From: Pseudo-nitzschia pungens | Lineage: Eukaryota > Bacillariophyta > Bacillariophyceae > Bacillariales > Bacillariaceae | DNA length: 64,000 nucleotides | Reading direction: 5' to 3' | Assembly (NCBI GenBank): GCA_037355855.1 | Contig: CM074765.1 | Location: 62,001-126,000, forward strand | In this document: positions 37,983 through 62,113 of the stretch, one piece after another | How the letters are laid out: each line of letters starts with the position of its first letter | How positions within the stretch are numbered: position 1 is the first letter of the stretch | The notes under the pieces: model-generated | What the model was told of the DNA's origin: nothing | What the model saw: only the letters and a program-made list of their open reading frames with translations | The model's database searches: none | Position numbers and translations under genes: made by a program

Positions 37983-38264
37983 TGTCAGATACATGCGCGT
38001 GCGCGCTTTAAAAAAGCAGTATTTAATAATATCTGATCAATACTCCTTTAATTAATAAGTACACTTATTAATTACTGTATCAGCGTACAAGCAGTACGAA
38101 AGTTGTAATCTTCTTAGTCACTTCTTACTTCGAGTATTTTATTGAAGAACCATCGCTTGCGACGCACAAGAAATAAACAATTCTGCGACACACAAGAAAT
38201 AAACAATTCACTGCTATGTATTTTAAGAAACAAACACTATTTCTAGCCCCGGTGTGACTGTGAG

Positions 38265-38460
38265 ACAAACACACAAACAACGAAACAAACGAAACAAACG
38301 AAACAAACGAAACAAACGAAACAAACGAAACAAACGAAACAAACGAAACAAACGAAACAAACGAAACAAACAAAACAAACAAAACAAACGAAACGAAACA
38401 CACGAAACACATGAAACAAACGAAACGAAACACACGGAAAGACACGAAACACACGAAACT
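38265..38460. repeat. GAAACAAAC minisatellite
   Basis: A 9-bp unit GAAACAAAC is repeated a dozen times with minor drift, beside the 3' end of the recombinase gene. The complementary word GTTTGTTTC occurs four times near 61530-61615 at the other end of the Crypton. Confidence 0.8.
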
Positions 38461-38535
38461 AAACTAAACAAATGAAACAACAGAACAAACAAAAAACACA
38501 CGTATGTAAACCGTCAGATTAATTATCGTAGTACA

Positions 38536-38764
38536 TTAAATTGTTTGAAGAATTTGGTTGTTGTCTTGTACGGAGCCTCGTGGTTGTCGTTGTTGTCGTG
38601 GTTGTGCCGCTGCCGGCGTTTCCATCGTAAACGACTTAGCCTTTATGAGATGTTTGTGGAGCGTTGAAAGAGTCTTCTTATTGGTGGTTGCCATGAACTG
38701 ATCTCCTTCTTTCAGCACTGCATCCAATGATTCCCCGGCAGCAACTCGACCCTTCACAAACTCC
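38536..38764 (-). pseudogene. Crypton recombinase, C-terminal part displaced by copia
   Basis: This 76-residue piece (MEFVKGRVAAGESLDAVLKE... ending NNQILQTI) is the real end of the recombinase at 59112-61129. The 7-bp duplication ATTATAT flanks the copia (38765-38771 and 59112-59118). Keeping one copy joins the reading frames exactly to 749 codons including the stop, with SRLKYIMEFVKGRV across the seam. The piece completes the GCR1_C-like domain and adds a polar Gln/Arg-rich tail. Confidence 0.8.
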
Positions 38765-38771
38765 ATTATAT

Positions 38772-39211
38772 AACAAGTTGTTTAACTGGAATTATGAGCT
38801 TAGTGTTCTATCTAGCGAATCATGTGTTTCTTGTGTTAACTCGCGATCACTCTGTTGTGAACTCTGTGTTTAGCGAGTGTGCTCAATAGCGATGATCGCT
38901 TAACACTTTGTTGATAACACTTGCTCGCAGATTCAGTGCGCGCGCTTGTATGTGTTTGTTCTGTTATTATTCAGTGACATATACTTTGCAATCCGTACTT
39001 AGCATGGTCGCGGCTAGTATGTGCGAGTCCATGCGCGTGGTTGGAGCAACTGCTCAATACAACTCCACGTGTAGTATGCTGATTGGGCGTGGTCGGAGCA
39101 TATCTATCGCTCAATACGATTCCACGTGTAGTATGATATAATGTTCGCGTTCGCGCGGTTTTATGCGCGGTTTCTGTTTCTTGTACTTAACAACCCTGTT
39201 ACTGCGTTGTT
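38772..39211 (-). repeat. Copia 3' LTR, 440 bp
   Basis: Matches the copy at 58672-59111. It carries two 26-bp direct repeats with a CCACGTGTAG core (39053-39078 and 39110-39135) followed by a TATA-like ATTATATC on the minus strand, a plausible U3 enhancer plus promoter. Confidence 0.9.
39053..39135 (-). promoter_or_regulatory. Duplicated G-box-like element in the LTR
   Basis: Two 26-bp copies (two mismatches) each contain ACACGTGG on the minus strand, a G-box/E-box type core. They lie just upstream of CATTATATCAT. The same pair exists in the 5' LTR at 58953-58978 and 59010-59035, where it would drive the element. Confidence 0.5.
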
Positions 39212-39220
39212 CCCTCCTTA
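39212..39220 (-). other. Polypurine tract of the copia
   Basis: On the minus strand AAGGAGGGA directly precedes the 3' LTR, in the position of the plus-strand primer of an LTR retrotransposon. Confidence 0.7.
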
Positions 39221-39318
39221 ATGTGTGGCGGAATGGGAAATAAACAGGATAACTGAGGTACACATTATTGCTCTGGTTTTCAATTGAACTCTATAAAATA
39301 TTTTAGTGGTTACTTAAC

Positions 39319-42300
39319 TTATTTGGTCATAAATTCGTTGATAAGGCTATGGAAGGCTGTTTGGGGGAGAGCCTTTGTGAGAATGTCTGCATAGTTGTCT
39401 TCAGATCGGATATGGTTGACGGAGATCACTTTGCCTGCTTGATGTTGTCTCACGAAATGGTAGGCCAATGCAATGGACTTCTTGTTCAAGGAACTTGCGG
39501 GGTTAGTCGAGTTTAGAACCACGCTCTTGTTATCCACATAGATATCAGCCGGTTTAGTTACAGCAACTCCCATGGATCTCAAATGGTACCTCAATCTGAT
39601 GGCGAGGGCCACTGCGTCCTTCAAGGCTGTGAACTCTGCACCAAAAGTACTGGTATGGACTGAAGTTTGTCTTTTAGATTTCCAATATACTGGAGTGGAA
39701 CCAACAAACGCGAGGAGCCCTGTAATACTCCTTCCAGTTACCAAATCGTGTGCATGATCACTGTCACAAAAGATGGTGATCTGTAGTTCTTTGACTTTTG
39801 GAATAGGAAACATCGGATCCAGCTCTTCCTTGTAGTATTTATATTGATGGGTAAAGTCTTCCATTCTCGTAGGTTCTTCGTCTATGGTAGTTCTTGGAGG
39901 CCTTGCGTCAATCACCAATCCTTTGTGCTTGTATTTCTTCAGGTAACCCAATATATATCTTGCCATTTCAAGATGATTCTTCCTTGGACTTGCTGAGAAC
40001 CTCGAAAGTGATGACACCGCATACCCTATATCAATCCTACCGGTCAAAATCACCCATTGGCACAAGCCAATGATATGCTGGAATTCCTTGTGTCCTGCCG
40101 GATCTAAAAACTCTGAGGTATCTTCTTCAGGTCTGCATTTTGTTGGCATAGGAATTGGATTCTTATGAAGTGTGAGTCCATGCTTGATTTCGTACTTCCG
40201 AAGAACTTCTGTAATGTATGAGCCGGAATTCAGGAGAATCCTTCCATCCTTGATTTTTCTCACACTGGTACCAAGGTAGTATTTTGGCTCCTTCTCAATA
40301 TTTCTCAGGGCAAACTCCTGTTCGATGAGGGAAATCCAATCTTGGGGTTTCTTTGCAACCACAATCAAATCATCCACGTGGGTTGCAATATAACAGTATC
40401 CTTCACCTTCTGGCTCTTGTCTCATCCATAGATCAGGGTCAGCACGGGAGGGTCTGAATCCTAGGCCTGCAAGTGTATCAGCAAAGAAATCCATGTAGGC
40501 TCTGCTGCTTCCAGCCAGTCCGTATAGGGCTCGTTGTATCTCTACTTTGCTTCCTTTATTCTCACCAAATACATCGTCTGCCCAACACCACACCTTCTCT
40601 TGGTTGGGAGCAGTAGGAAAGGCATTCCCTACGTCAGCTGTCATGAGATCCAACTTCTGGTGCTGTGCAATAAGGAATAACAGGAACACTGAAAGACTGT
40701 CCACCTGGCTTGAATATGTATTGACGTTGCTTGAATCAACCAAATGCCCTCCTGCAACTAGACGGGATTTGTATCTTCTATCTTCGCTTTTGACATCCCA
40801 TATCATTTTCAGCTTGGCTTCTTGCCAACCTTCAGATGCAGGAAACTCAGTATCCGGATCGTGGAATTTGAAACACTTTAGTCTTTCCAGGTTCTGCATC
40901 TCTTTTTCAATGCTTTCTTGCCACTTTCTGTTGCCTGCTTCCAAATCGAACTGGACACATTGTTGGTAGGTGCTTGGAATCTTGATACCAAATTTCTCCC
41001 TTTGTTTCTTTGCTGCAATTCTTTGGTTCCGGGATAACAGCCTTTTCTTCTTTTTGCTCGGGTTCTGAATGGCTCTTCGGAGTTTCTTTGAAAGTTTAAC
41101 TTGTGTACGAGGCGGATGAGATGGCGCTGACTTGATTCGTCTCAATCTTCTCACAATATTGCTGTTTTCTTTTAGGACGGAATCTGCCCATGTCCCCAAT
41201 GGACCACTCGCTCTTCTGCTGCTGTTCTCCACAATGTACATCTTGATATATTTGGCACAAGCAACTGGTTGGTCCTTTTGCAGAACAGTGAGTGGAATAT
41301 CCATAACAACTGTTCCAACATCTGTGACAAACTGAGCCTTGAAAATCAACATTCCTTCCTTCCAATGATGATTCAAGATCTTTCTGAATTCACTAGTCAA
41401 GTTCTGGTCGGTGCTTTCCAGGATGTCCAGGTGGGATTCTGCATTGTTGGTGCAATCGAGGTCTTTTGGTAGGGCTTCCTCTTCATCTTGTTCAGCGGTT
41501 GCTTCCTCCTCTTCGTCAGCGCCAGTATCTAGCTCATCTGAATCCTCCACATCGGTTGTACCTCCTGCATCCATGTCATCATCCTTGGTTTCGTAACTCT
41601 GTTTCAAGAAGGTTTCCAAATTGCTCGTAGAGTGTTCCATGCCTGTTGAATCAGCTGCAAATTCCTCCCCCGAAACTAAGATGGGGACTTCATCGGTGCT
41701 TTCGATAAGGGTTCTTTCCTTCTCGGCCACAGTCAATTCGAACTTACTTGGGTCATCAGTGAATACCTCCTTGCTGGTGCCAATATTCTCACGTCTGGTT
41801 CTGACAACTGAGCGCATGAGGATCTGTCGCTTGGTCTTCTTAGTATCTGGTTCTGTCAGGATATAATACGTCATGGCATCCCCACAGGAATCTGCAAAGG
41901 CAAGGAATCTCCCCTTCAACATGCTTTCTTTTGGCGTCTTGTTCTGGGGTTGATAGTACCAAATAGGCTCATAGAAATGGAAGCGCAGGTGTGAGATATC
42001 AGGAGTCCATCCATGTGCGACTTCGGAGGGGGTTTTCCAATTCAAGGATGCACGAGAACAAACATTATTCACTTGGCAAACCCATTTTGCACACCAATGA
42101 GCCAAGGATTTAGGAGCTTTGAACATTGCCAAACAGTTGGAGATCATCTTGCTAAGTCTCCCCCATTCTGGCTCAGCCGGATTTTGGTGTTTGTAGTGTG
42201 GTTGGCTTGTCCTGGATCTAGTGGCAACTCTGGCTTCCCGCAACACTTCACTCCACTTCACCCCTGTCTCTGCTTGCGCATTGTCACTGATCATGGTATC

Positions 42301-42338
42301 TGGAGCACCATGCTCTCTGAGGTAATCCTTCAAGGCAG
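39319..42338 (-). CDS. Copia pol, part 3: integrase C-part, RT, RNase H
   Basis: About 1006 residues, gag-pol residues about 923-1928. It opens inside the integrase core with KDYLREHGAPDTMISDNAQA (second catalytic Asp) and NPAEPEW (catalytic Glu, about 36 residues later). The TPDIS motif (GWTPDISHLRFHFYEPIWYY) follows. Reverse transcriptase covers about 1430-1680, with TADVGNAFPT and YCYIATHVDDLIVV (HVDDL instead of YVDDL). RNase H starts near IFCDSDHAHD and ends DNYADILTKALPQTAFHSL. All key residues are present and no stop interrupts. The reading frame continues from 48793 once the TIR element and one TA are ignored. Confidence 0.9.
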
Positions 42339-42829
42339 TACGTCCGAAAACTGGTTCGCGACCCCTCCCAAGAATTTATTTAGGGGGGTCGCGATTTATT
42401 CCTGGCTCATTTTGACGTAGCTCGATTCCTAGCTCTCTCGCGATTCGCAACCCCAATCGCGACCCAGTAACTACCTCAATTACGAGAAAAAAAAATAAAG
42501 ACCCAAATTTTTTTTCAATCTGACTCATTATTACTGACCCTACCATCATTATATATTATGAGACTGTTGCAGAAATTCACTCCCAAAAATTGATTTCTCA
42601 TCCCGACACAAAGTATTTCCCATCACACCCCTCAAGAAATTCATCACAAAAATCACAATTATTACCCGAAGCCCAGGAATCGCGACCCCCATGAAAAAAA
42701 ATTTTGAAACACTATGATGCAAAATATAAGTCTTTCTTTTGATAAATATTGATATTACTCTAATAATTGTTTATTCTCTGTTCAATTTTCTCACACACGC
42801 ACACACAAATTTTGGTTTGTTAAAAGAAG

Positions 42830-43140
42830 TCGTCGTCCTTGAAATCGTCGTCGCTCTTCGTTTCGATCGTCCTTGTCTTCGTCGTCCTTGAAGTTGTCGT
42901 TGCTTCTCGCTTCGATCGTCTTCGTCCTCCCTGAAGTCGCCGTTGCTCTTCGCTCCAAATTGCCTTCCTCTTCGTCGTCCTCCCTGAAATCGTCGTCCTC
43001 TCTGAAATTGTTGTTGCTCTTCGCTTCGATTGGCTTCGTCGTCCTCTCTGAAATCGTCGTTGCGCTTCGCTTCGATCGTCTTCGTCGTCCTTGAAATCGT
43101 CGTTGCTCTTTGCTCCGATCGTCTTCGTCCTCATGCACAC
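42830..43140. repeat. Degenerate repeat of GAAATCGTCGTTGCTCTTCG type
   Basis: Imperfect 30-70 bp units rich in CGTCGT and CTTCG. The minus strand reads as charged Arg/Glu/Asp repeats (SERTT, FREDD), also seen in copy 2 at 49855-50160 with small changes. Confidence 0.7.
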
Positions 43141-44029
43141 CACACAAATTTTGGTTCAAACGATTTTTAAATAATGGTCATCGTGATAATTTCATCCATA
43201 CCGGTATCTGTACTGCCAGTAAAGGTCTCCTCACATCGCACCATCATATTTCATCAGTTGCAATCGCATCATTTTGTCAGTTGCGATCCCATCATATTTG
43301 TCTTGCGATCGCAATATGTGTCAGTTGCCCCGTCGCATCATTTTTCGCATCATTTTTCAGTTGCCCCGTCGAATTAAAGTTGATTCTTCCCTATCAGTAG
43401 CAAGCAGGCAACTCAATGCAGAATTAGAACAATTGAAATCCATTATCAATACCCCAGATCTTGATGTGCTTCACTCACCGTTGCATTATATTTCATTTTC
43501 CGTTGCATCCTATTTCATCAGCAGTTGCGGTCGCCTCCCTATCAGGAGCAAGCAGGCAAGTCAATGATGCACAGTTAGACGAATCAAAATCCATTATTAA
43601 TACCTCCTCCAACCTTGATGTGGTTCACTTACCATTTCCATCTCATTATATTTCAGTTGCCGTCTTTCTTGTTCCGTTCCGACCCAAAATTATGTGAAGT
43701 AAGATTTACGACACATGCATTTTCTGTCATGCATGTGTTTGCCGAGAATTGATTTCTTCTACATGATAGCAGTAGAGTTACTACTAGTAGTAGTATGTAC
43801 CGTACTGAAGTAATAGTAGAAACCACCAGTAGAAAGCTGATGATGGTGATATCGCGCGCCACCTAAACCACAGAGAGCCAGCCCCGCTGCGCCATAATTT
43901 TGGACTACCTCTTATGTACTACTACCTACGCACTGCAGTAGTATGTAGCAGCAGTGTATAACTGTACTACTACTACAAGCAGCAAGAATAGTACTACCTC
44001 AGTGAATATACCATCAAATCAAATATCTG

Positions 44030-45232
44030 AATGAATCTGGCCATTCTTTGTGTGATTCCAGTGTGAATATTTCTCATCCTATGCATGGGCAAGACTATTC
44101 AAAAAGAAGTATTCAAAAATCACCAATAATTTGGATGTCACCACTGAATAATTAGTAGTTGGCCCAGTACTGCGGAATTTACTAGAAAATACTGTAAAAT
44201 CACATATCTGAATGAATCTGGCCAATCTTTGTGTGATTCCAGTGTGAATATTTCTCATCCTATCCATGGGCAAGAGTATGCAAAAAGAAGTATTCAAAAA
44301 TCGCCAATGGTATGGGTGTCACCACTGAATAATTAATATTTGGTCAACGACTGCGGAATTCACTAGAAAAAAGTAGCAAATCACATATCGGAATGAATCT
44401 GGCCAATAGTTGTGTGATTCCAGTGTGAATATTCCTCATACTGTGCATGGGCAAGAGTATGCAAAAAGAAGTATTCAAAAATCACCAATAATTTGGGTGT
44501 CACCACTGAATAATTAATATTTGTTCCACTACTGCGGAATTTACTAGAAAAAAGTAGCAAATCACATATCGGAATGAATGCGGCCAATAGTTGTGTGATT
44601 CCAGTGTGAATATTTCTCATCCTGTGCATGGGCAAGACTATTCAAAAAGAAGTATTCAAAAATCACCTATAATTTGGGTGTCACCACTGAATAATTAATA
44701 TTTGGCCCACTACTGCGGAATTTGCTAGAAAAAAGTACCAAATCACATATCAGAATGAATCTGGCCAATATTTGTGTGATTCCAGTGTGAATATTTCTCA
44801 TCCTGTGCATGGGCAAGACTATTCAAACAGAAGTATTCAAAAATCACCAATAATTTGGGTGTCACCACAGAATAATTAATATTTGGCCAACTACTGGAGA
44901 ATTTACTAGAAAAAAGTACCAAATCACATATCAGAATGAATCTGGCCAATATTTGTGTGATTCCAGTGTGAATATTTCTCATCCTATGCATGGGCAAGAG
45001 TATGCAAAAAGAAGTATTCAAAAATCACCAATAATTTGGATGTCACCACTGAATAATTAATATTTGGCCCAGTACCGCAGCATTTACTAGTAGAAACTGC
45101 TGTAAAATCAAATATGTGAATGAATCTAGTCAATATTTTGTGATTCCAGTGTGAATATTTCTCATCCTATGCATGGGCAAGAGTATGCAAAAAGAAGTAT
45201 TCAAAAATCACCAATGGTATGGATGTCACCAT
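44030..45232. repeat. 181-bp satellite, 7 units (copy 1)
   Basis: The word TGTGATTCCAGTGTGAATAT recurs at 44051, 44232, 44413, 44594, 44775, 44956 and about 45139: six steps, five of exactly 181 bp. Units differ by a few substitutions. The short minus-strand frames they contain (MNTSFCILLPM...) are by-products. Confidence 0.9.
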
Positions 45233-45323
45233 TGAATAACTGAATAGATCACCTGGTGACAAATGCTTCGCAGCAAAAATATTTCTATTGCATCGTGATG
45301 TAGCAAAAGACATTCCCGTGACG

Positions 45324-45392
45324 GGACTCGAACCAACAATACCAACTGCATACAATCCAGTAGTGCCACTATTACTGTCTACTACTGCTAAA
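45324..45392 (-). ncRNA. tRNA-like Pol III promoter remnant (A/B box)
   Basis: On the minus strand GGTTCGAGTCC (45324-45334) is a perfect B-box, and TAGCAGTAGTAG (45380-45391) is an A-box-like word about 50 bases upstream. The T-stem and acceptor stem do not pair properly, so this is not a functional tRNA; it resembles the head of a tRNA-derived SINE. The copy-2 counterpart is at 52522-52532 and keeps the B-box. Confidence 0.4.
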
Positions 45393-46059
45393 CAGGTGTT
45401 CTCTCCATCTTTTAATGCTACCACCATCTCGGGGAAGGCTCATCCTGTATAATATGTACCAACACTAAGTTACCGTACCTCCACCACTTCGCGCCAAAAG
45501 ATTTGTACCAGTACCATACGTACAGTTTATACGTACCGTTTACACCGTACTGGAAACCTACACATCCCCAGCCTGTACGTACTGTCGGTACCTACTAGGA
45601 ACGGGTATGCACAGACCTGTCATTTTTTTTCTCAGCCTGTACACTTAGTACTGTAAAGTACGTACATTGCTGTCATTTTTTCCACTCAGCCTGTACACAC
45701 AGTACCATAAAGCACGTAATAAAGCACTAAAGCACTACGTCACAGTGGCAGATCGATTTTCCGCCCCACATCTCCCTCGTACCGGATGTGTCATAATTTT
45801 CATTTTCATTTTCATTTTCGTTTCATCTCATGCATCGGAATATTCTGGCCGGTCCAGTTTAACCTAGCCATCAGGCACCGGGACCATCTCTTTTGAAAAA
45901 GACACACATGCTGTGGGGAGCTTGAGAACGGCCGCTCTTGCTTTCTGCTCTGTTGTCTGATTCATATCACGGAGGTTGGGTGTGTTGAAGTCCTGGAACT
46001 ACCTGGCTTACCCAGATATACGACGTACTGATATTGAAAAGAACGAAGACGAAAATCAC

Positions 46060-46420
46060 AACCGATCGGTGCGGAGAGGGACGACGAGGACGACGGAGGT
46101 ACGATCGCTCCAGAGAGGGACGACGGGGGTTTGGTCGCTTCGATCGCTTCTAACAGGATGTTTCTTGTTGTTGTTTTTACTTTCGTCTTTCCATAGGGGA
46201 ACGGCAACGACCGGGTACGACGACGAACGACGACGACGAATGGTACGATCGCTCCATACAGGGTCGACGGGGGTACGATCGCTACGATCGCTTCTTACAG
46301 GATCTTGTTGTTGTTTTCACTTTCCTCTTTCCATAGGGGAACGACGGCAACGATCGGGTACGACGACGAATGACAATGACGAACGGTACGATCGCTCCAT
46401 ACAGGGCCGACGACAAACGG
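46060..46420. repeat. GTACGATCGCT-type diverged repeats
   Basis: Repeated words GGTACGATCGCTCCA, GATCGCTTCTAACAGGAT and CTTTCCATAGGGGAACG recur at about 100-170 bp spacing. The equivalent block in copy 2 is 53290-53720 and has been expanded. Confidence 0.65.
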
Positions 46421-46736
46421 GACGGACGGCACAAGGTATGCCTCATAGTTTAATAAAAATACTCTCTTCTTTTTTCTTTTATCAAGTAGTGTCTGTTTCC
46501 TCTAGAATCATAACTAACACAAATATTTTTTCATTCTTGGTTGTTGCAGAAAGGAGCGACTGATCGACGGATTCGGTGAAGGGAGCGACGGATCGATCGA
46601 TTTCCGGTTGTTGCGAAAAGGAGCGACGGACCGAAATAACCAGGTTGTTGCAGAAGGGAGCAACAATTTCTGGTTGTTGCAGAAGGGAGCGACAATTTTC
46701 GGTTGTTGCGAACAGGAGCGACAGATCGTTTCTGCT

Positions 46737-48068
46737 TGCTGTCCCCCCCCCTTTATTATCGACGCGTTGCTGCTGTTTTGCTGCTTGCTGTCCCCCCCCT
46801 GTATTATCGACGCGTTGATGCTTGCTGTCCCCCCCCTGTATTATCGACGCGTTGCTGCTGCTTGCTGCTTGCTGTCCCCCCTGTATTATTGACGCGTGCT
46901 TGCTGCTTGCTGTCCCCCCCTGTATTATCGACGCGTTGCTGCTTGCTGCTGCTTGATGCCCCCCCCTGTATTATCGACGCGTTGCTGCTGCTTGCTGTCC
47001 CCCCTGTATTATCGACGCGTTGCTGCTTGCTGCTTGCTGTCCCCCCCTGTATTATCGACGCGTTGCTGCTTGCTGTCCCCCCTGGTGTATTATCGACGCG
47101 ATAGTTCTTTAAAAAATATTCTCGTGTATTATCCCCCCTGTATTATCGACGCGTTGCTGCTTGCTGTCCCCCCTGTATTGTCGACGCGTTCGTTGCTGCT
47201 TGCTGCTTGCTGTCCCCCCCTGTATTATCGACGCGTTGCTGCTTGCTGCTGCTTGCTGTCCCCCTGTATAAATTTCTTTTTCGACATAAATCCCTCTACA
47301 ATTTGTACTGGAAAATCGAATTTTTTGATTGCCTCGTTCACTCATCACCTCTATCTGCTTGCTGCTTCTTGCTGTCCCCCCTGTATTATCGACGCGTTGC
47401 TGCTGCTTGCTGTCCCCCCTGTATTATCGACGCGTTGCTGCTGCTTGCTGTCCCCCCTGTATTATCGACGCGTTGCTGCTGCTTGTTGCTGCTTGCTGTC
47501 CCCCCTGTATTATCGACGCGTTGCTGCTTGCTGTCCCCCCTCGTACTATCGACGCGTTGCTGCTGCTTGCTGTCCCCCCCTGGATTATCGACGCGTTTGT
47601 ATTATCGACGCGTTGCTGTTTGTATTATCGACGCGTTGCTGCTGCTTGCTGTCCCCCCCCTTGTATTATCGACGCGTTGCTGCTGCTTGCTGTCCCCCCC
47701 CTGTATTATTGACGCGTTGCTGCTGCTTGCTGTCCCCCCCTGTATTATCGACGCGTTTGTATTATCGACGCATTGCTGCTTGCTGCTTGCTGTCCCCCCC
47801 TTTATAATCGACGCGTTTCTGCTGCTTGCTGTCCCCCCTGTATTATCGATGTGTTGCTGCTTGCTGCTTGCTGTCCCCCCCTGTATTATCGACGCGTTGC
47901 TGCTGCTTGCTGTCCCCCCTGTATTATCGACGCGTTGCTGCTTGCTGCTTGCTGTCCCCCCTGTATTATCGACGCGTTGCTGCTGCTTGCTGTCCCCCCC
48001 CTGTATTATCGACGCGTTGCTGCTGCTTGCTGTCCCCCCTGTATTATCGACGTGTTGCTGCTTGCTGC
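46737..48068. repeat. C-rich minisatellite, units near 35 bp (copy 1)
   Basis: Units combine TTGCTGCTGCTTGCTG, a run of 5-9 C, TGTATTATCGACGCG. Some units carry an extra CTTGCTG. About 37 units are interrupted at 47101-47135 and by unique sequence at 47268-47357. Cys/Leu-rich plus-strand and Gln/Ser-rich minus-strand frames are translations of the repeat. Confidence 0.9.
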
Positions 48069-48074
48069 CTAGTG

Positions 48075-48480
48075 TCATTGTCAGTCCATACTGTGATGGT
48101 GTGTGTCGGACCAAAGGGAGGGTGACTTCTGCTTTCGCAGAAGAAATAAAATCCATAAGATCGTTCTTAACATAATAAGTTCGGCAATCACTGTTGGAAT
48201 AGAGATGCCTGGAGAGGCCTTGAGATACATATCGGTAGGTGTGAAAGTGGCTCGATTCTTGTTTGTATCCCTTGAAGGATTTTGATTTTCTTCTTCTTCC
48301 GGAGGCAATGCAGTTGCGACATTGGAATGTCTTGGGTATTCTGGGCTCATTGGCAAAGTGCCTTGGGTCCGAGGAAGCTTTCGGCATGGTGGTGTGTGTT
48401 TTTGTGATGGTGCGATGTCCCGGTATGTGATGTGACACCACTGAAAAAAAAAGTTCACAAAGGTGCGTGACGAAACACTT
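48075..48480. other. Copy-specific segment of TIR element copy 1
   Basis: This stretch between the minisatellite and the shared right end has no counterpart in copy 2. A minus-strand frame opens near 48441 and runs into the minisatellite; its first 105 residues (KSKSFKGYKQESSHFHTYRY...) are non-repetitive but match no family I know. Confidence 0.5.
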
Positions 48481-48791
48481 TGGTGTGATTGAAGTAAATT
48501 GGATTAAAAATTATTTGTTGTGTTGAGTCAAGTGTGTCAAATGTGTAAAAATGGAATGAAAATGTGAAGAGGGACTGAATGTCAGGGTCTAGAACAGAAC
48601 ATTTCCGTCGACACGTTGGGGGAGTTGAGAAAAGGGAGAAATGTGGTTGAGAATAATGGAAAAAAGTGGAGAATAATGGAAAAAAGGTTGTGAAATAAAA
48701 AATTGGGGTCGAATTTTTTTTAGACAAGTCGCGATTGGGTCGCGATCCGGTCGCGATTGGTCGCGATGGGTCGCGAACCAGTTTTCGGACG

Positions 48792-51049: not shown

Positions 51050-52435
51050 AATGAATCTGGCCATTCTTTGTGTGATTCCAGTGTGAATATTTCTCATCCT
51101 ATGCATGGGCAAGACTATTCAAAAAGAAGTATTCAAAAATCACCAATAATTTGGATGTCACCACTGAATAATTAGTAGTTGGCCCACTACTGCGGAATTT
51201 ACTAGAAAATACTGTAAAATCACATATCTGAATGAATCTGGCCAATCTTTGTGTGATTCCAGTTTGAATATTTCTCATCCTATCCATGGGCAAGAGTATG
51301 CAAAAAGAAGTATTCAAAAATCACAAATGGTATGGGTGTCACCACTGAATAATTAATATTTGGTCAACTACTGCGGAATTTACTAGAAAAAAGTAGCAAA
51401 TCACATATCGGAATGAATCTGGCCAATAGTTGTGTGATTCCAGTGTGAATATTCCTCATACTGTGCATGGGCAAGAGTATGCAAAAAGAAGTATTCAAAA
51501 ATCACCAATAATTTGGGTGTCACCACTGAATAATTAATATTTGTTCCACTACTGCGGAATTTACTAGAAAAAAGTACCAAATCACATATCTGAATGAATG
51601 CGGCCAATAGTTGTGTGATTCCAGTGTGAATATTCCTCATACTGTGCATGGGCAAGAGTATGCAAAAAGAAGTATTCAAAAATCACCAATAATTTGGGTG
51701 TCACCACTGAATAATTAATATTTGTTCCACTACTGCGGAATTTACTAGAAAAAAGTACCAAATCACATATCTGAATGAATGCGGCCAATAGTTGTGTGAT
51801 TCCAGTGTGAATATTTCTCATCCTGTGCATGGGCAAGACTATTCAAAAAGAAGTATTCAAAAATCACCTATAATTTGGGTGTCACCACTGAATAATTAAT
51901 ATTTGGCCCACTACTGCGGAATTTGCTAGAAAAAAGTACCAAATCACATATCAGAATGAATCTGGCCAATATTTGTGTGATTCCAGTGTGAATATTTCTC
52001 ATCCTGTGCATGGGCAAGACTATTCAAAAAGAAGTATTCAAAAATCACCAATAATTTGGGTGTCACCACAGAATAATTAATATTTGGCCAACTACTCGAG
52101 AATTTACTAGAAAAAAGTACCAAATCACATATCAGAATGAATCTGGCCAATATTTGTGTGATTCCAGTGTGAATATTTCTCATCCTATGTATGGGCAAGA
52201 GTATGCAAAAAGAAGTATTCAAAAATCACCAATAATTTGGATGTCACCACTGAATAATTAATATTTGGCCCAGTACCGCAGCATTTAGTAGAAACTGCTG
52301 TAAAATCAAATATGTGAATGAATCTAGTCAATATTTTGTGATTCCAGTGTGAATATTTCTCATCCTATGCATGGGCAAGAGTATGCAAAAAGAAGTATTC
52401 AAAAATCACCAATGGTATGGATGTCACCATTGAAT
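51050..52435. repeat. 181-bp satellite, 8 units (copy 2)
   Basis: The marker word TGTGATTCCAGT recurs at steps of 181 bp from about 51071 to about 52339. There is one unit more than in copy 1; the extra unit seems to duplicate the third/fourth unit type (GCGGCCAATAGTTG). Confidence 0.9.
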
Positions 52436-53289
52436 AACTGAATAGATCACCTGGTGACAAATGCTTCGCAGCAAAAATATTTCTATTGCATCGTGATGTA
52501 GCAAAAGACATTCCCGTGATGGGACTCGAACCAACAATACCAACTGCATACAATCCAGTAGTGCCACTATTACTGTCTACTGCTGCTAAACAGGTGTTCT
52601 CTCCATGTTTTAATGCTACCACCATCTCGGGGAAGGCTCATCCTGTATAATATGTACCAACACTAAGTTACCGTACCTCCACCACTTCGCGCCAAAAGAT
52701 TTGTACCAGTACCATACGTACAGTTTATACGTACCGTTTCCGTTTACAAAAAACCTACATATCCCCAGCCTGTACGTACTGTCGGTACCTACTAGGAACG
52801 GGTATGCACAGACCTGTCATTTTTTCTTTTTCTCAGCCTGTACACTTAGTACTGTAAAGTACGTACATTGCTGTCATTTTTTCCACTCAGCCTGTACACA
52901 CAGTACCGTAAAGCACATAATAAAGCACTAAAGCACTACGTCACAGTGGCAGATCGATTTTCCGCCCCACATCTCCCTCGTACAGGATGTGTCATAATTT
53001 TCATTTCCATTTCCATTTTCATTTTCGTTTCAATTCTTGCATCGGAATATTCTGGCCGGTCCAGTTTAACCTAGCCATCAGGCACCGGGACCATCTCTTT
53101 TGAAAAAGACACACATGCTGTGGGGAGCTTGAGAACGGCCGCTCTTGCTTTCTGCTCTGTTGTCTGATTCATATCACGGAGGTTGGGTGTGTTGAAGTCC
53201 TGGAACTACCTGGCTTACCCAGATATACGACGTACTGATATTGGAAACAACGAAGACGAAACTCACAACCGATTGGTGCGGAGACGGAC

Positions 53290-53720
53290 GACGACGACGA
53301 CGACGACGAAGGTACGATCGCTCCAGAGGGGGACGACGGTGGTACGGTCGCTACGATCGCTTCTAACAGGGTGTTTGTTGTTGTTTTTACTTTCGTCTTT
53401 CCATAGGGGAACGACGGCAACAACAAAGAGGAAGGTACGATCGCTTCGGACAGGGACGACGGCGGGTACGATCGCTTCGGACTGGGACGATCGGGTACGA
53501 TCGCTCCAGAGAGGGCCGACGGGGGTACGATCGCTACGATCGCTTCTAACAGGATGTTTGTTGTTATTTTTACTTTCGTCTTTCCATAGGGGAACGACCG
53601 ACGACGACGACGACGAAGGTACGGGCCGACGGGGGTACGATCGGAAGAGGACGATGTCGAAAGTACGGTCGCTCCAGAGAGGGTCGACAACGACGAAGGT
53701 ACGATCGGATCGAACGAAAC
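53290..53720. repeat. GTACGATCGCT-type repeats (copy 2)
   Basis: Counterpart of 46060-46420, with an additional unit and more GACGACGAC runs. Confidence 0.6.
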
Positions 53721-53880
53721 ACCCCTACGATTTTCGGTTGTTGAGAACAGGAGCGACGGATTGAACGAAATACTCCTACGATTTTTAGTTGTTGACAATG
53801 AGAGCAACGGATCGATCGGTTTTCCGTTGTTGCAGAAAGGAGCGGATCGATCGGTTTTCGTTATTTGAAGAAAGGAGCGT

Positions 53881-55362
53881 TCCCCCCTGTATTATCGACC
53901 CGTTGCTGCTTGCTGCTTGCTGTCGACGCGATAGTTCTTTAAAAAATATTCTCGTGTATTATCCCCCCTGTATTATCGACGCGTTGCTGCTGCTTGCTGT
54001 CCCCTGCATTATCGACGCGTTGGTTGCTGCTTGTTGCTGCTTGCTGTTCCCCCCCCCCCTGTATTATCGACGCGTTGCTGCTTGCTGTCCCCCCTGTAGT
54101 ATCGACGCGTTGCTTGTATTATCGACGCGTTGCTGCTGCAATCGTATCCTTCCGTATCGATTGTATCGTATACGGAAGATAGATCGGCAATCGTATCCTC
54201 CGTGTCGATTGGAAGATAGATCTATAAGCCTTAACCTTACTGCCTGGTACTCCGTCTAACGATCTTACAAAGCGCTCCGTAATACTTCGAAGTATGTTTG
54301 GAGGTCACGTCCCAACAGCTGCTTGCTGCTTGCTGTCCCCCCTGTATTGTCGACGCGTTCGTTGCTGCTTGCTGTCCCCCCTGTATTTTCGACGCGTTCG
54401 TTGCTGCTTGCTGTCCCCCCTGTATTTTCAACGCGTTCGTTGCTGCTTGCTGTCCCCCCCCCCCTGTATTATCGACGCGTTGCTGCTGCTTGCTGCTCGC
54501 TGTCCCACCCCTGTATTTTCGACGTGTTGCTCCTGCTTGCTGTCAGCCCCTGTATTATTGACGCGTTGCTGCTGCTTGCTGCTTGCTGCTCGCTGTCCCA
54601 CCCCTGTATTATCGACGCGTTGCTGCTGCTTGCTGCTCGCTGTCCCACCCCCGTATTATCGACGCGTTGCTGCTGCTTGCTGTTGTTTGCTGTTTGCTGC
54701 TTACGTAAAGTACGTGACGGCACGTACGAATAAGTGGCTGTCAGCGCCACTTTAAATGGCGCCTGGTTACCCCCATCGACGCGTTGTCCCCCCCTGTACT
54801 ATCGACGCGTTGCTGCTTGCTCCCCTATATTATCGACGCGTCGCTGCTTGCTGTCCCCCCTGTAATATCGACGCGTTGCTGCTGCTTGCTGTCCCCCCTG
54901 TATTATCGACGCGTTGCTCCTGCTTGCTGTCCCCTCCTGTATTATCGACGCGTTGCTGCTGTTTGCTGTCCCCCCTGTATTATCGACGCGTTCGTTGCTG
55001 CTTGCTGCTTGCTGTCCCCCCTGTAGTATTATCGACGCCTTGCTGCTGCTTGCTGCTGCTTGTTGTCCCCCCCTGTATTATCGACGCGTTGCTGTTTGCT
55101 GCTTGCTGTCCCCCCTGTATCATCGACGCGTTGCTGTTTGCTGTTTGCTGTCCCCCCTGCTGTATTATCGACGCGTTGCTGCTTGCTGTCCCCCCTGCTG
55201 TATTATCGACGCGTTGCTGCTTGCTGTCCCCCCTGCTGTATTATCGAAGCGCTGCTGCTGCTTGCTGTCCCCCCCTGTATTATCGACGCGTTTGTATTAT
55301 CGACGCGTTGCTGTTGCTTGCTGTCCCCCCTGTATTATCGACGCGTTGGTTGCTGCATGCTG
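53881..55362. repeat. C-rich minisatellite, units near 35 bp (copy 2)
   Basis: Three blocks (53881-54142, 54316-54701, 54776-55362) of the same unit as in copy 1, separated by unique sequences. Units show more variants (TATTTTCGACGCG, TGTATCATCGACG). Confidence 0.85.
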
Positions 55363-55369
55363 TCACTTT

Positions 55370-56060
55370 TGTGTGATTGATGATTGAAGTAAGGGGTTGG
55401 GGTTGGACCGGTTTTTGCTTGTACTTCTTCAGGGGAGTGTACTCAGTCTACAGTTCGATTCTCGACAACGACTCCTCCAATCGATCCGCAAATTGCAGGC
55501 CTTGTCTATCTTGATATAATAGAGGTCTCCGAAGTGGTCCGGTTGCAATCGGTGGTCCGGGGATAGAGATATTAATTTTCGCCGTTATTTGGACCGGGTA
55601 GTTTTTCGATCGCAAAAAAAGACGCGATTTTTGCTGCTGCTTGGAGCCTTCGATTCTCGTAAACTCAACGCCCAATCGATCCGCAACTTGCAGGTCTCCT
55701 TCCTCTAATAGTGTAGATGGTGCAGCTACAAGGGGATAATTTACTCGGGCTTGGTTAAGGAGTTAGGGGGGGGCTGACAGGTCCTTGTTGCTGTGGTTGT
55801 TGAAATGGAGTTTTTTTCAAATTTTTGACCTTATTTTGTGGCCCGGTGTAAGAAAAGGCTCGGCGCGCAATACAAGTCATGTTGGGTACCTATCGAAAGC
55901 TCGTGACCTTGCCATTTCTCTCATCGGGTATAAATTAGTGTCCAAGCTAAGGTCTAAGAGTTATCTTAGTTAGCAGAAACAGGGGACCTTTCGATGTTGC
56001 TCTGGCTCATAACCAGTCCGTAAAAACCAGACTGAATTACTTACTAAACCCTTACATCTG
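55370..56060. other. Copy-specific segment of TIR element copy 2
   Basis: This segment replaces 48075-48480 of copy 1. It contains an imperfect direct repeat (TTCGATTCTCG...CCAATCGATCCGCAA) at about 55455-55500 and 55648-55695. A short minus-strand frame of 75 residues matches nothing known. Confidence 0.5.
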
Positions 56061-56330
56061 ATTAAAAATTATTTGTTATGTTGAGTCAAATGTGTCAAAT
56101 GTGTAAAATGGAATGAAAGGGTGACGAGGGACTGAATATCAGGGTCTAGATCAGAACATTTTCCTGAAAACGATGCGGGGATCGAGAAAAAGGAGAAATA
56201 AGGTTGAGAATAATGGAAAAAAGGTTGTGAAATAAAAAATTGGGGTCGCATTTTTCTGAGACAAGTCGCGATTGGGTCGCGATCCGGTCGCGATTGGTCG
56301 CGATGGGTCGCGAACCAGTTTTCGGACGAT

Positions 56331-58547
56331 GTCGATGGAGGTTAACAGAGACTCGCCTTCAGTGCTGTCCCGGTCTTCAGCAATGTAAGTGGCATAATGC
56401 ACCAACAGGAGGACCGGGTCTTCTCTCCCAGGAATTATGGCCTTCGTTACTGCACTCACCACTGGGTGTCCATCCATCACATCACTTGACATGAAAGGCT
56501 TTACGGCTGAGGTCAATCCTGTCTCTCCTCCAACTTTGATCCAAGCCTTTTCTGTCACAGTAGGTCGGTTTCCACCTCCACTATCCATAATTGCAATATT
56601 TTCTCCCTTGGAAATTTTCATGGGGAAGCGTCTGGTTGTCTTTAGGAGGGTACGTTCTTGTAGTCTTCTACTTCTGCGTGGGCCGGCAGCTGGAGTATGG
56701 GTTGAAACCTCTGGTGGAGATGCTGGAGCATGCTCCTCTTGCTGCTGTTGCGTCTGCATCTCTTCGTGCTCTTTCCCCTTTTCAACCATATGAAATCGAA
56801 TGGCCTTTAAAGGAAGGGATCCGGGGGGAAACAGTTCGGAGTCATCGATAGATCCAAGACTGTGGTCATCGGTAGGATCCTCGGGAACACTATCCTCGGG
56901 CCCAGGGGGCGCCGGGGGACCACTCGGTGGGGGAGGCAGGAGCATCTCCGTAGGCGTCTCCATCAGGTCCGGTGTCTTCCCTGTATCTTCAAAAGTATCT
57001 AACATGATTCGTCGGACCCGGCGTTGACGTCCCGGATCACGGGATCGAACGCGCCGGGGGACATCGGTGTTCCCCATCCCATCATCTTTGGGCTCACCAA
57101 TGTTGACTCCCACAAGAGGCTTGGGGTATTCTCCCGGGGACATCTTGTGGCGCACGGCAGTATTGTATTCAAGGACATATTTTTGGTGGTCGGATTTCAG
57201 GCTTCTCCAAAGATCTGGGGGGATACGAAGGATTCCAATAAGATTAGGGTGTAACGTACTGGGAAGAGAAGCGGATTCTGATTCCAATGTTCCTTCTACC
57301 CGACGGCGCTTCCCGGAATGATACACCAGTTCTTGTCGGCGTTTAGCTTCCCCTTGTCTGAGTATCCTATTGCGGAGCGCCACTTTCTCCTCGTTTCGGA
57401 GCTCCATAACAAGATCTTGGATCTTGAGCCTGGATTTGTTTTGTTCCATGTAGCGTTTGATATAATCCAGGGATTGGTCGTGTATATTCCGAATAAATAA
57501 ACCTTTCCCTTCTGATTCGTGCATTCCGAATGTCGGGATACGGTTGAGTTCATAATAGATCAACTCGAACCGATTGATGTAGTCAGAGATATTGCCGCCT
57601 TCGTAGAGTTTGACGTTTTGCAGCTTGATACGTAGAGTGTCTGCGTGGGTCTCTAGCTGTGATTCGTCGTCGTACCAATCAAGGAGTTTCTGCCATGCGC
57701 CGTGTCCATCTGTTCGGTGTTGATTGATTTTTGAGTATGCGCTTCCGTTGCAGGTTGCTGATGCTAGCGTGGAAAACAGAACGTTGTTCCTGTTTGGATC
57801 CTTATCTGCTTCAATTCTGCTATCCATAACTTTCTGGAACCCTGTCCCATATAGGATACTTTCCGCCTCTGCCTTCCATTTCACCCAGTGTAATTCGTTG
57901 CCGTCAAATGGTTTCACATCTCCTACACGTAGCGACTGGAAACCGTCTCTCTCTTCCTTCTTTTCCAGGGCTTCTTCCTTCTTTTCTAGGGCCTTCTTAA
58001 GTTCCTTTATCTCATTGTCTCTTTCTTCTTTCTCTTTCTTCTCGAGGGCCTCTTTTTCTTCCTTTTCTTTCTTCTCGAGTGCTTCTTTTTCTTCTTTTTC
58101 TTTCTTCTCAAGTGCCCTCTTTAATTCCTTTATCTCCTTGTCTCTTTCTTCTTTTTCTCTCGTCTCGAGGGCCTTCCTAAGTTCAGCAATCTGGTCGTCG
58201 CGCTCTTCTTTCTTTTCGAGCGCCTTCTTCAGCTCTTTAATTTGTTCATCAAGGTGATTGTTGGTTTTAATCTGTTCTTCAAGGTGATTGTTGTTTTTAA
58301 TCCGTTGTAGTGCGAACGTCGGGGTGAACATCCACTTAATCCCCTTCAGCAGAAGAGATCGGTCCCAATAGGAATCGCTTTGGTCTGAGTCGGTGTTGTT
58401 GAATACCTTCAGCGTTGTATTCGTATTCGTATTGGATGTTTCTTCGTTCGTATGGTCATTGGATATTTCTTCATTGGTATTGGCTGGGGGTGTTTCGACG
58501 ACGGGTGTTTCTTCGTTCGGTCTTTCTTCTGACGTGACGGTCGTCAT
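56331..58547 (-). CDS. Copia gag and protease, gag-pol part 1
   Basis: ATG at 58547 (MTTVTSEERPNEETPV) is chosen as the first ATG; the open frame extends to 58676 without need. About 739 residues before the insertion. Residues 100-200 form a long Lys/Glu coiled coil (EIKELKKALEKKEE repeats). Residues about 212-395 are a copia-type gag (HWVKWKAEAESILYGTGFQK ... WQKLLDWYDDES). A Pro-rich linker follows. The aspartic protease motif AIMDSGGG is near 654. No CCHC zinc knuckle is visible. The frame resumes at 49339 after the TIR element. Confidence 0.9.
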
Positions 58548-58671
58548 AATTGTTTTAGGTATGTGAGTGTAATAACGTAGTTTTCCAGTAAAAACTAAAA
58601 TCGCGTGTTTCGAATCGTTGAGTATCGAACAACGCGAATGGTAGAGTATTGTCAAACTGCGACTGTTAATC

Positions 58672-59111
58672 AACAAGTTGTTTAACTGGAATTATGAGCT
58701 TAGTGTTCTATCTAGCGAATCATGTGTTTCTTGTGTTAACTCGCGATCACTCTGTTGTGAACTCTGTGTTTAGCGAGTGTGCTCAATAGCGATGATCGCT
58801 TAACACTTTGTTGATAACACTTGCTCGCAGATTCAGTGCGCGCGCTTGTATGTGTTTGTTCTGTTATTATTCAGTGACATATACTTTGCAATCCGTACTT
58901 AGCATGGTCGCGGCTAGTATGTGCGAGTCCATGCGCGTGGTTGGAGCAACTGCTCAATACAACTCCACGTGTAGTATGCTGATTGGGCGTGGTCGGAGCA
59001 TATCTATCGCTCAATACGATTCCACGTGTAGTATGATATAATGTTCGCGTTCGCGCGGTTTTATGCGCGGTTTCTGTTTCTTGTACTTAACAACCCTGTT
59101 ACTGCGTTGTT
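58672..59111 (-). repeat. Copia 5' LTR, 440 bp
   Basis: Matches 38772-39211. Downstream (minus strand) GATTAACAGTCGCAG at 58671-58657 is in primer-binding-site position; the cognate tRNA is not recognised. The outer end of the LTR supplies the last codons and a false stop to the truncated recombinase frame. Confidence 0.9.
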
Positions 59112-61129
59112 ATTATATATTTGAGTCTTGAGAATTGCTTCTGGTCAGCAGCGTTGTAATGCTTTCGCCATTTATTGCGACTCTTCTTCTCAAGCTCTTC
59201 AATCCCACCAGGGAAATTGTCGTTGTCTTCGAACTCGCCAAGCCCAAACCACTCGTTCCACATCGACGAAACGGACGTATGTTTTCGAAACAATGTTTTT
59301 CGGACGACGAGGGATCGATTACCCGCCGCGCCATTTGCTGCTGTTGCTGTTGCTGCTGTTGGTGCTGCGACTTGTTGTATGAGTGGGTGACTAAACACGT
59401 GCTGCATAAAATCGATGATTTGATTGGTCCTCATATCCTGCTGATCTCTGAATTCAGTAACTGAATGCTCTAAACGTTGAAAGCCTCGTTCATAGTCCCG
59501 TGACAAATTACAGATTTCGGAATGAATGTTGTGCAACCGGTCACGAAATCCTGGAAGAGCAACATCCATACTCCGTTCGATCGACGTAGTTTCTGAAGTT
59601 GTTTCAACGACCATCACCTTGGCAATGAGTGCCTCCTGATAATCCTTGAACAACTGTGTTCTGAAAACGGGCAAGGAGAAGACCTTATGATTCCTACCCT
59701 TGTGGAGTAACATGGCAGCATCCTGCAGTACGACACACTGTAAATTGAGTAGAAGGTCAAAGAATGCTCTGGCTGTTGTTCGCTCCGGTTTCCCGTCGAC
59801 TGTCTTGATTGCGTTCTCGAAGAATGGAAAAACTTGATCTCGAAGCTCTTGCGGTGGGTCCAGGGTATTTCGTGGCAAGTAGTAACCACGTCTATCTTGC
59901 GAATGCCCTGCCATCGCTCGCATTGCCTTCAACGGTAGCTTCGCCGAATATCGATCCTCTCGTACATTAAGATTCCAATTTCCGAGCATCTTGATAAACT
60001 CTGGATCAACCTCTTTCAACTCTAAATCAACCGCACCTGTGCCACGGCCGAAGTGGACAAAATGCTTGGACGCGATTTGCAACGTGTTGCATGCATTTTT
60101 CATGGTTTTCGCATAAGCTTGATCCGTGATGGATTTCGTGCTCATGGGTTTGGTACAGTCGGTGAGTAATTTGACGTCAAACCAGGATTCGTTCACTCCA
60201 AAGTCGTATACAGCAAGCTCCCCTGTCAAATGGAACCGTGCCATCAAGTAGAAACCCAACGCACCAATGGGACACATGGCAACGTTTTTGTTTCTTATCA
60301 CCCGTCCATACAATGTTTTGTTACCGTTTGTTTTCCCCGTGGCGATTTTCATGATCAAGATTTGGCACGGATGGACGCCTTCGTCAAGTTTAAGAATATT
60401 GCACAGATCAGACAGCTCGCATTTGAATAAGGATTCGCCCCGCAACACACCACCATGCGTCATAAGGAAACAGTATCGATCCCTCAACGCAGCAATGTGG
60501 TAATAGTCTCTGTTACGATTCTTTGCAAACAAGAAATCTTCGATGCGCTCGATGTTCTGAACGTTCATGTACGGTGACAACATGTGGTCTATCTTCTCAT
60601 CGTATCGTGCCTTTTTGACTCGTTGTTTCCTTTCACTCACGACCTTCATCAACTGATTAACTCTATCCGATCGAACCTGTTCTGACGTAAGATTATTGGC
60701 GTTTTGACTTTGCTGGTGTTTCAACAATCTGAGACACGCGCACAAGGTGTGATTCACTACGTCGAGTCCTACAGGATCTTCGGCGCTTTCGTGGTAGAGT
60801 TTGGCCTCGCAATCGTCGTTGCGGTTGTTGTACCTGTCCATGACGGCGTTGAAATCGTCGACGTCGAAGATCGGTTGTACTGCGTCGGTTTTCTTCTTGC
60901 GCCCTCTTTTTCTTCTTGCACGATACGCATGGTAGAAAACAAAGCCAAACACCTTTTCCTCTGTCACTGTTTCGGGATAATCCAGGAAACCAAATACAGT
61001 TCTACAGTACTCTTTGAATTCTGCTTGTTTCCTCGCATAGGCAAGTCTTGTATTCTCTGGAACACCATCAACGTCATCCTGTTGGACCTGCCTTGCTGCT
61101 TGGGCAAATAAACCACTTGTGTAAGACAT
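59112..61129 (-). CDS. Crypton tyrosine recombinase, N-terminal 672 residues
   Basis: ATG at 61129. Residues 1-60 are a SAM-like N-terminal region (NTRLAYARKQAEFKEYC). A basic RRKRGRKKK patch is near 75-83. The catalytic core resembles the fungal Crypton/Ndc10 type: RYCFLMTHGGVLRGES near 226 (first Arg), HFGRGTG near 363 (H-x-x-R), and AMAGHSQDRRGYYLPRNTL near 405-420 (Tyr). A coiled-coil region follows near 540-590, and a GCR1_C-like DNA-binding domain starts at about 625 (SMWNEWFGLGEF ... WRKHY). The copia insertion cuts this last domain; the rest is at 38536-38764. Nothing else disrupts the frame and no intron is needed. Confidence 0.85.
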
Positions 61130-61149
61130 TGCGCTGGAGATTTCGTGTT

Positions 61150-61290
61150 TCGGTGTTTTGGCGTTTTGGCGTTGTGGCGTTGTGGCGTTTTGGCGTTTTG
61201 TTTAGTCGTTCGTCGTTGTGTTTTGCTGGTGTTGTTTCGGCGTTTCGGCGTTTCTGCGTTGCGGCGTTTCGGCGTTTCGCTTGTTTTGGC
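61150..61290. repeat. GGCGTTTT minisatellite upstream of the recombinase
   Basis: Short units GCGTTTTG / GCGTTGTG / GCGTTTCG are repeated about 14 times just before the recombinase ATG. A GTT run follows at 61387-61405. Confidence 0.8.
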
Positions 61291-62113
61291 GCTTGTTTCC
61301 TTCTTGTTTGTTGGAGGTTTGCTTGCTGGAGACAAAGGGGAGTGTTTTTGTTGAGGGTAATGGGTGTTTTTAGCTGCTGTACTTGTTGTTGTTGTTGTTG
61401 TTGTTGTCGTTGTTGTCGTCGTTGCGAAATTTAAATTTATGTGTTTGTTCTTTTTGTTGCTGTGTGTTCGTTGTCTTGTTGTCTTTGCGTTTCGGCATTT
61501 CGAATCGAAATTTATGTGTTTCTTTTTAAAAAGTGTTTGTTTCTTACTACATATGGAGTTGTTTGTTTCTTAATACATAAGGAGTTTGTTTCTGTGTCAG
61601 AAAGTTTGTTTCTTTGAAAGTATTCTTCTCACAAGCACCTCAAGGGCTTGCGATTGCGCGTATTATGGTTGAATTTGATTGGTTAATAATTAGTCCCAAG
61701 CACTTACGATATTGTGTCAGAGAAAGGGATCGTAAGGATTAAAACTGCACGCAAATCGTTAAGAGAGGTGTCAGATACTGTTTATATATACTAATAATAA
61801 TCTCTTATTATTTTTTACTCCCATGTATCTGGGCTCAAAGTAGTAGCCTATCGGAGCAGATCTATGAAAAAGTGAATCCCGTACCGTACGGTATTCATAA
61901 ACAATACGAAGTAATACGAAGCACAAAGTAATACAAAAATGAGTCTCCAATTCCCGAACATGATCATGTTGGTAGTCAAGGCGTACTCTAGTACTACTAC
62001 TATGCATTTCCATAATCCAATCATTCATATCTTTCCAAATACGGGAATGACCCAATACTGTAAAATTTAAGAAGATATTTGTACGACAAATAGCTTCAGC
62101 ACCATCTTCTTGT
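61291..62113. other. Crypton right end and spacer
   Basis: GTTTGTTTC words (61530-61615), the candidate border TGTCAGATAC (61769-61778), then AT-rich host spacer. No gene. Confidence 0.45.

Follow-up and report, generated by a model that had tools for sequence, protein, structure and literature searches.

CryptonF elements encode a single protein in which a GCR1_C domain follows the tyrosine recombinase, and they carry short direct repeats instead of terminal inverted repeats (TIRs) at their ends; the part of the 2011 survey drawn on here gives nine fungal and four oomycete species as their hosts (Kojima and Jurka 2011, PMC3212892). The same part places CryptonS elements, which are without GCR1_C, in oomycetes and in the diatom Phaeodactylum tricornutum, as the sole Crypton group for diatoms there (PMC3212892). 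The Copia-like elements of diatoms (CoDi) are long terminal repeat (LTR) retrotransposons with a copia-type reverse transcriptase, and in the excerpt of their description used here one Blackbeard insertion has a TTCC duplication (Maumus 2009, PMC2806351). Plavaka transposons carry the PF18759 transposase domain and duplicate 2 bp (or 3 bp) of their target; the available portion of their account describes two subgroups, PlavakaA with termini TGT..ACA and a 2-bp target duplication, and PlavakaB with termini CATCA..TGATG (PMC12730594). EnSpm-Plavaka transposons have been named in the green alga Auxenochlorella, and therefore Plavaka outside fungi is not new (PMC12633428). The Crypton and EnSpm superfamilies are named for the Cyclotella cryptica genome, in the excerpt at hand without subgroup (PMC7466962). 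Here, we describe a locus of the diatom Pseudo-nitzschia pungens in which a Crypton, a copia retrotransposon and two TIR elements lie one within the other. The window analysed is the whole stretch of 64,000 nucleotides C8:62001-126000 (contig CM074765.1) of a 66.9-Mb assembly with 28 contigs, and the coordinates below are window positions. Proteins encoded in the assembly agree with a diatom host: the chlorophyll a/b-binding family has 72 matches, and one of these proteins aligns with FCPI-7 of the diatom PDB entry 6ly5 over 167 of 168 residues (304 bits), other fucoxanthin chlorophyll proteins coming next in the ranking.

The nest is real: the recombinase frame of the Crypton is split by copia, and the pol region of copia is split by the two TIR elements. 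A preliminary description, made from the letters of the window alone, had proposed this three-level nest and had set beforehand, as its test, a search of the genome for empty sites. The search found uninterrupted relatives of both the Crypton and copia, and the nest is borne out by a Crypton copy (L009) at the copia site and by two copia relatives (L049 and L050) at both TIR sites. Copies are numbered L009-L028 for the Crypton, and L029-L048 contain LTR pairs of copia; L073 is a locus of the TIR family with a long open reading frame (ORF). The parts of the Crypton are the following.

37935..61812, minus strand: whole Crypton including the insertions, from end probes and blastn against other copies; ends approximate, AT-rich, ATAATA-like at both ends
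59112..61129, minus strand: recombinase frame, N-terminal 672 codons, with NDC10_II (tyrosine recombinase; E 7.6e-34) and the start of GCR1_C
38536..38764, minus strand: C-terminal remainder of the recombinase frame with the stop, contiguous with the rest in L009
61463..61812, minus strand: end segment E5, its orientation relative to the ORF opposite in 15 of 18 scorable copies
37935..38240, minus strand: end segment E3; some of the other copies have it reversed with respect to the ORF

As had been proposed, the recombinase frame runs on across the copia insertion: 2,018 nt of open frame are followed by 229 nt that continue in phase to the stop, giving 2247 nt. The element is somewhat longer than first drawn, its ends lying near 37935 and 61812 instead of at 37983 and 61778. 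A search of the genome with the Crypton body listed 42 matches, many of them partial (best 40 of 42 candidates scored). Among these, L009 on contig C9 is an unsplit copy with a 748-aa frame and a body 99.9% identical to that of the window Crypton. It is contiguous through the copia site and has a single ATATAAT where the window has two.

In the unsplit protein NDC10_II scores 116.9 bits (cut-off 26.3). GCR1_C reaches 30.4 bits in L009 (cut-off 23) and falls to 20.2 bits, below the cut-off, in the split window piece. Matches of the protein to PDB entries were weak (E 0.09 and 0.13 for a coiled stretch, 3.5 for CBF3 subunit A) and were not used. The motifs GVLRGESL and HFGR occur in all 16 Crypton bodies compared and R-x-YYL, by the pattern used, in 7 of them; we take these to be candidate catalytic residues of the recombinase. 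Fourteen of the 16 bodies have no stop and two have one. Copies of the Crypton lie in different flanks; the enzyme that integrated them was presumably the element's own recombinase. Head-to-tail tandem Cryptons are also found, two on C5 (L011) and three on C3 (L021 and L022). The junction of the C5 tandem is GGTAAATATAATACGAGATT; about 10 bp there belong to both end segments.

By its order of domains, NDC10_II and then GCR1_C, the recombinase has CryptonF architecture. With CryptonF, as the consulted part of the survey defines it, the family shares the tyrosine recombinase and GCR1_C in one protein. Short direct repeats in place of TIRs, of 6 bp in CryptonF, would be a further common trait: ATAATA is present at both ends of L009, imperfect in the window copy and absent on the E3 side of L010. 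The family differs, in a comparison by domains rather than by a tree, in its diatom host and in the inversion of its body in some copies (PMC3212892). The presence of GCR1_C sets the family apart from CryptonS, and it falls outside that group as the same text describes it.

The second layer is a copia retrotransposon, for which the preliminary description had given a length of 20,340 bp and a gag-pol cut twice. Both statements hold.

38772..59111, minus strand: copia LTR retrotransposon including both TIR elements, 20,340 bp
58672..59111, minus strand: 5' LTR, 440 bp
38772..39211, minus strand: 3' LTR, identical to the 5' LTR (440/440)
38765..38771, no strand: left flank ATTATAT, that is, the 5-bp duplication TTATA with an extra outer T
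59112..59118, no strand: right flank ATTATAT, that is, an extra outer A with TTATA
58658..58671, minus strand: primer-binding site, 14 nt complementary to the anticodon arm of tRNA-Asn
56329..58547, minus strand: first piece of gag-pol, with gag and a protease motif DSG recognized by eye in the frame
48792..49339, minus strand: middle piece of gag-pol, with the start of integrase by eye; joined to both neighbours in L049 and L050
39319..42338, minus strand: last piece of gag-pol, with the rest of integrase and RNase H by eye, and RVT_2 (E 9.7e-15)

The three pieces of the frame (2219, 548 and 3020 nt) add up to 5787 nt in phase, and the only stop is at the terminus of the third piece. The relatives L049 and L050, 87-88% identical to the window element, are contiguous through both TIR sites and have there a single TA and a single AT. 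Assignment to Ty1/copia is supported by RVT_2 and by an LTR pair with a short target duplication; integrase, as judged by eye, precedes reverse transcriptase in the same frame. A search with the LTR gave 47 matches (best 40 of 103 candidates scored); the nearest other LTRs among the matches scored are 88% identical, and hence no other close copy was seen among them.

The target duplication of copia has to be read differently from the 7 bp that the flanking ATTATAT suggests, a candidate that was dropped after eight LTR pairs with both members (from L029-L048, and the window) had been compared. A 5-bp duplication one base outside the LTR is found in 7 of the 8 pairs, window included, while seven identical flanking bases occur in 2 of the 8, again with the window. 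In 6 of the 8 the left extra base is T and the right one A, and the inner LTR edges carry other bases. The duplication is therefore most likely the 5-bp TTATA, and each LTR is bordered on its outer side by one additional base. These bases could be explained by an untemplated A at both 3' ends of the cDNA. The extended pattern of the primer-binding site occurs at 13 places in the genome, and the three that were fetched are all tRNA-Asn genes. The complementary site suggests that a fragment of tRNA-Asn probably serves as the primer of copia, as a tRNA fragment is known to do for Drosophila copia. With CoDi the window element has in common that it is an LTR retrotransposon with a copia-type reverse transcriptase in a diatom host, and it differs from them, in so far as the excerpt describes them, in the 5-bp duplication with its extra outer base and in the tRNA-Asn anticodon-arm primer site (PMC2806351).

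The innermost layer consists of two TIR elements.

42341..48791, no strand: TIR element 1, 6,451 bp, non-autonomous, Plavaka-type family; duplicated target TA
49342..56328, no strand: TIR element 2, 6,987 bp, same TIR family; duplicated target AT
48100..48480, minus strand: 127-codon open piece in element 1, common to the N-terminal part of the long-ORF copies of the TIR family

Both have 27-nt TIRs (CGTCCGAAAACTGG...) and lie in the same orientation, 550 bp apart, in the copia pol; one of them is apparently within the integrase part, as judged by eye. Tandem repeats of 181 bp are found at 44004-45208 and 51024-52409 (6 and 7 copies), and tandem repeats with a unit of about 38 bp likewise occur inside the window elements. 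The elements had been taken for one and the same TIR element inserted twice. They do belong to one family, but they are two distinct members of it, of unequal length, with 96% identity along the left ~2.9 kb and 85% along the right 290 bp. The common family, the common orientation and the short distance would also fit a single insertion that was later duplicated by recombination. Such a history is scarcely credible, given the differences in length and sequence. The 550 bp between the elements belong to copia and align in register with L049 and L050, and each element has its own duplicated bases, TA for one and AT for the other. Moreover, both ends of element 1 have nearer matches (100%, rounded) in two ends on C3, separated by 5.9 kb, than in element 2. 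Searches of the genome gave 167 matches to the left end, short ones included (best 40 of 366 candidates scored), and matches in all of the best 40 of 232 candidates scored for the right end. Eight of 10 other fetched pairs of ends have 2-bp duplications.

No transposase domain is listed in either of the window TIR elements. The 127-aa piece gave 150 matches (best 150 of 268 candidates scored), 32 of which lie in frames of at least 1,000 aa, 8 of these with a stop in the matched stretch. One such long-ORF locus, L073, shares 723 bp with element 1 at 98.8% identity, up to the outer end of the right TIR, and encodes a Plavaka-type transposase of about 1,100 aa (a 1,082-aa ORF). The Plavaka model PF18759 gave 61 matches in the genome, 56 of them over the cut-off and the L073 locus among them, and on the cut-out L073 piece it scores 28.9 bits against a cut-off of 26.3. 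Only 1 of 14 control genomes gave a match, which was under the cut-off. A search for Transposase_21 found no match, and likewise none in the control genomes, so that its absence is not demonstrated; NCBIfam gave no match for two proteins. Plavaka-type frames of about 1,100 aa with termini CGTCC form a large family in this genome. With Plavaka, as far as the portion of its account used here goes, the family shares the PF18759 domain over the cut-off and, with PlavakaA, the 2-bp target duplication; its termini CGTCC..GGACG differ from those of both described subgroups, and for this reason it is filed in neither (PMC12730594).

The best explanation of the locus, and one we hold as nearly certain, is that the Crypton came first, then copia and then the two TIR elements, by three kinds of transposition with three unrelated enzymes. 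This is the order in the preliminary description. It follows from the way in which the insertions, all with duplicated target bases, are enclosed: copia by the Crypton frame, and the TIR elements by that of copia. Nesting and order are both shown by the uninterrupted counterparts of the two split layers within the same genome. In a first step, a Crypton with a GCR1_C-bearing tyrosine recombinase of CryptonF architecture would have integrated near 37935/61812 in AT-rich sequence. In a second step, copia integrated at codon 673 of the recombinase gene, duplicating TTATA and splitting the GCR1_C domain. In a third step, two different non-autonomous members of the TIR family integrated 550 bp apart in the copia pol, duplicating TA and AT; their transposase probably came in trans from long-ORF relatives that encode the Plavaka-type enzyme. 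As to which TIR element arrived before the other, the order could be either. The lengths of 2247 and 5787 nt are indeed exact multiples of three, as had been emphasized at first; the chance of a length divisible by three is 1/3, and for this reason the lengths alone are weak evidence; it is the uninterrupted counterparts that decide.

Several observations weigh against this account. All junctions were read from the genome assembly, and the comparison with counterparts covers the copia and TIR sites. The AT-rich repeat at the two ends of the window Crypton is imperfect. Integrase has no Pfam match in the copia frame and was recognized by eye only. Among the 10 pairs of TIR ends, one has unequal flanks (GA/TG), and for another no right end turned up in the stretch retrieved. 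On the side of the transposase, hmmscan of the whole 1,082-aa ORF gave no Plavaka at E up to 1, and the scores of the cut-out piece are near the cut-off. The autonomy of the long-ORF copies is putative, and element 2 has no match to the 127-aa piece among the rows listed. Since the evidence comes from an assembly in which all three families are repeated, misjoined repeats might be supposed to have produced the nest. Such an artefact is very improbable: every insertion has matching duplicated flanks, both split frames are in phase, and the uninterrupted counterparts align across the junctions. The successive arrival of Crypton, copia and TIR elements is therefore retained.

All layers had been called young. 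This stands for copia, whose LTRs have no differences in 440 positions, and for the TIR elements, which are young because they lie inside it. For the Crypton, the observation that bears on age is the 99.9% identity of its body to a copy on another contig. As a result of the successive insertions, the Crypton and copia genes in the window are interrupted, and uninterrupted Crypton frames are present elsewhere in the genome. Nested insertion is ordinary, and the window nest is rated as a well-documented case of known kinds of elements. A second nest is found at C5:5710400-5719760 (contig coordinates; L074 and L075). There, a Crypton relative of 77-79% identity is interrupted at about C5:5710471-5719701, the edges of the insert repeat about 22 bp (20/22 alike by eye), and the insert holds a copia with LTRs starting at 5712566 and 5718920. 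The genome thus has at least two such nests.

Beyond the preliminary description, the analysis brought out the type of transposase in the TIR family, the likely 5-bp copia duplication, and the orientation of the Crypton body. For the last of these, the outer segments E5 and E3 and the body were mapped in 22 further copies (L009-L028) besides the window. Eighteen copies, window included, could be scored, several of the majority form from E5 alone; the five left unscored are L023, which has only a 33-bp end match (pointing to the majority form), and L024, L025, L027 and L028, which have no end match. In three of the 18, namely the window, C9 and C6 copies, the coding body lies between the element ends in the opposite orientation to that of the remaining 15. 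The window form is read as derived, since the majority form includes distant copies (about 78% identity). The window and C9 Cryptons have the whole 5' junction in common (2,704 bp, gapless, at 99.7%), and so the window-type form has moved at least once.

Inverted repeats lie near both ends of the element: a C3 copy has repeats of 25-65 bp (81-96%), the C6 copy has one of 76 bp (82%) and one of 266 bp (68%), and the C9 copy has one of 49 bp (78%). It is among such repeats that the orientation switches. We therefore regard it as quite likely that the body was inverted by recombination between these repeats, either homologous or by the element's own recombinase, possibly in a circular form. A circular Crypton would bring the inverted repeats close together. 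The junction common to the window and C9 copies adds that the inverted form was mobile at least once. Against this explanation, the breakpoints are not fixable to the base, and the involvement of the recombinase and the circular form are hypothetical. In its 5' leader the C9 copy resembles the C5 copy, and the C6 copy a C3 copy. Because these are different majority copies, there may have been one inversion or two, and the differences between the C9 and C6 leaders fit two inversions, or one inversion followed by exchange. A tree of the 16 bodies gives no decision on the number (support 0.84 and 0.91 at the nodes concerned). A bolder form of the same idea makes the coding body an invertible segment, flipped at internal inverted repeats, perhaps by its own recombinase in the circle, with both forms transposing; this we consider doubtful.

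The closest parallel is in retrotransposons of the PAT group, where Kangaroo and a Daphnia PAT element have an inverted tyrosine recombinase (YR) domain, according to the portion of the account at hand (PMC4157794). Common to both cases is an element with a tyrosine recombinase whose gene is reversed in some lineages. In contrast to the window Crypton, these are retrotransposons with a reverse transcriptase, and what is inverted there is only the YR domain, between types of elements (PMC4157794); here it is the whole body, between near-identical copies of one Crypton family. Among the titles and beginnings of abstracts screened, none reports an inverted Crypton body, or the present elements from this genome or, in this form, from a diatom, which at that depth of screening is weak evidence.

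With uninterrupted counterparts present, the nest provides a clear relative time scale for three types of transposons in one diatom genome. That the Crypton body occurs in both orientations suggests ends that function regardless of the direction of the gene. A Crypton bearing GCR1_C in a diatom goes beyond the CryptonF hosts given in the consulted part of the 2011 survey (PMC3212892), and the termini of the TIR family are of a further type beside those of the two Plavaka subgroups in the portion of that account used here (PMC12730594). Both the diatom Crypton with GCR1_C and the new Plavaka terminal type bear on how widely such elements spread.

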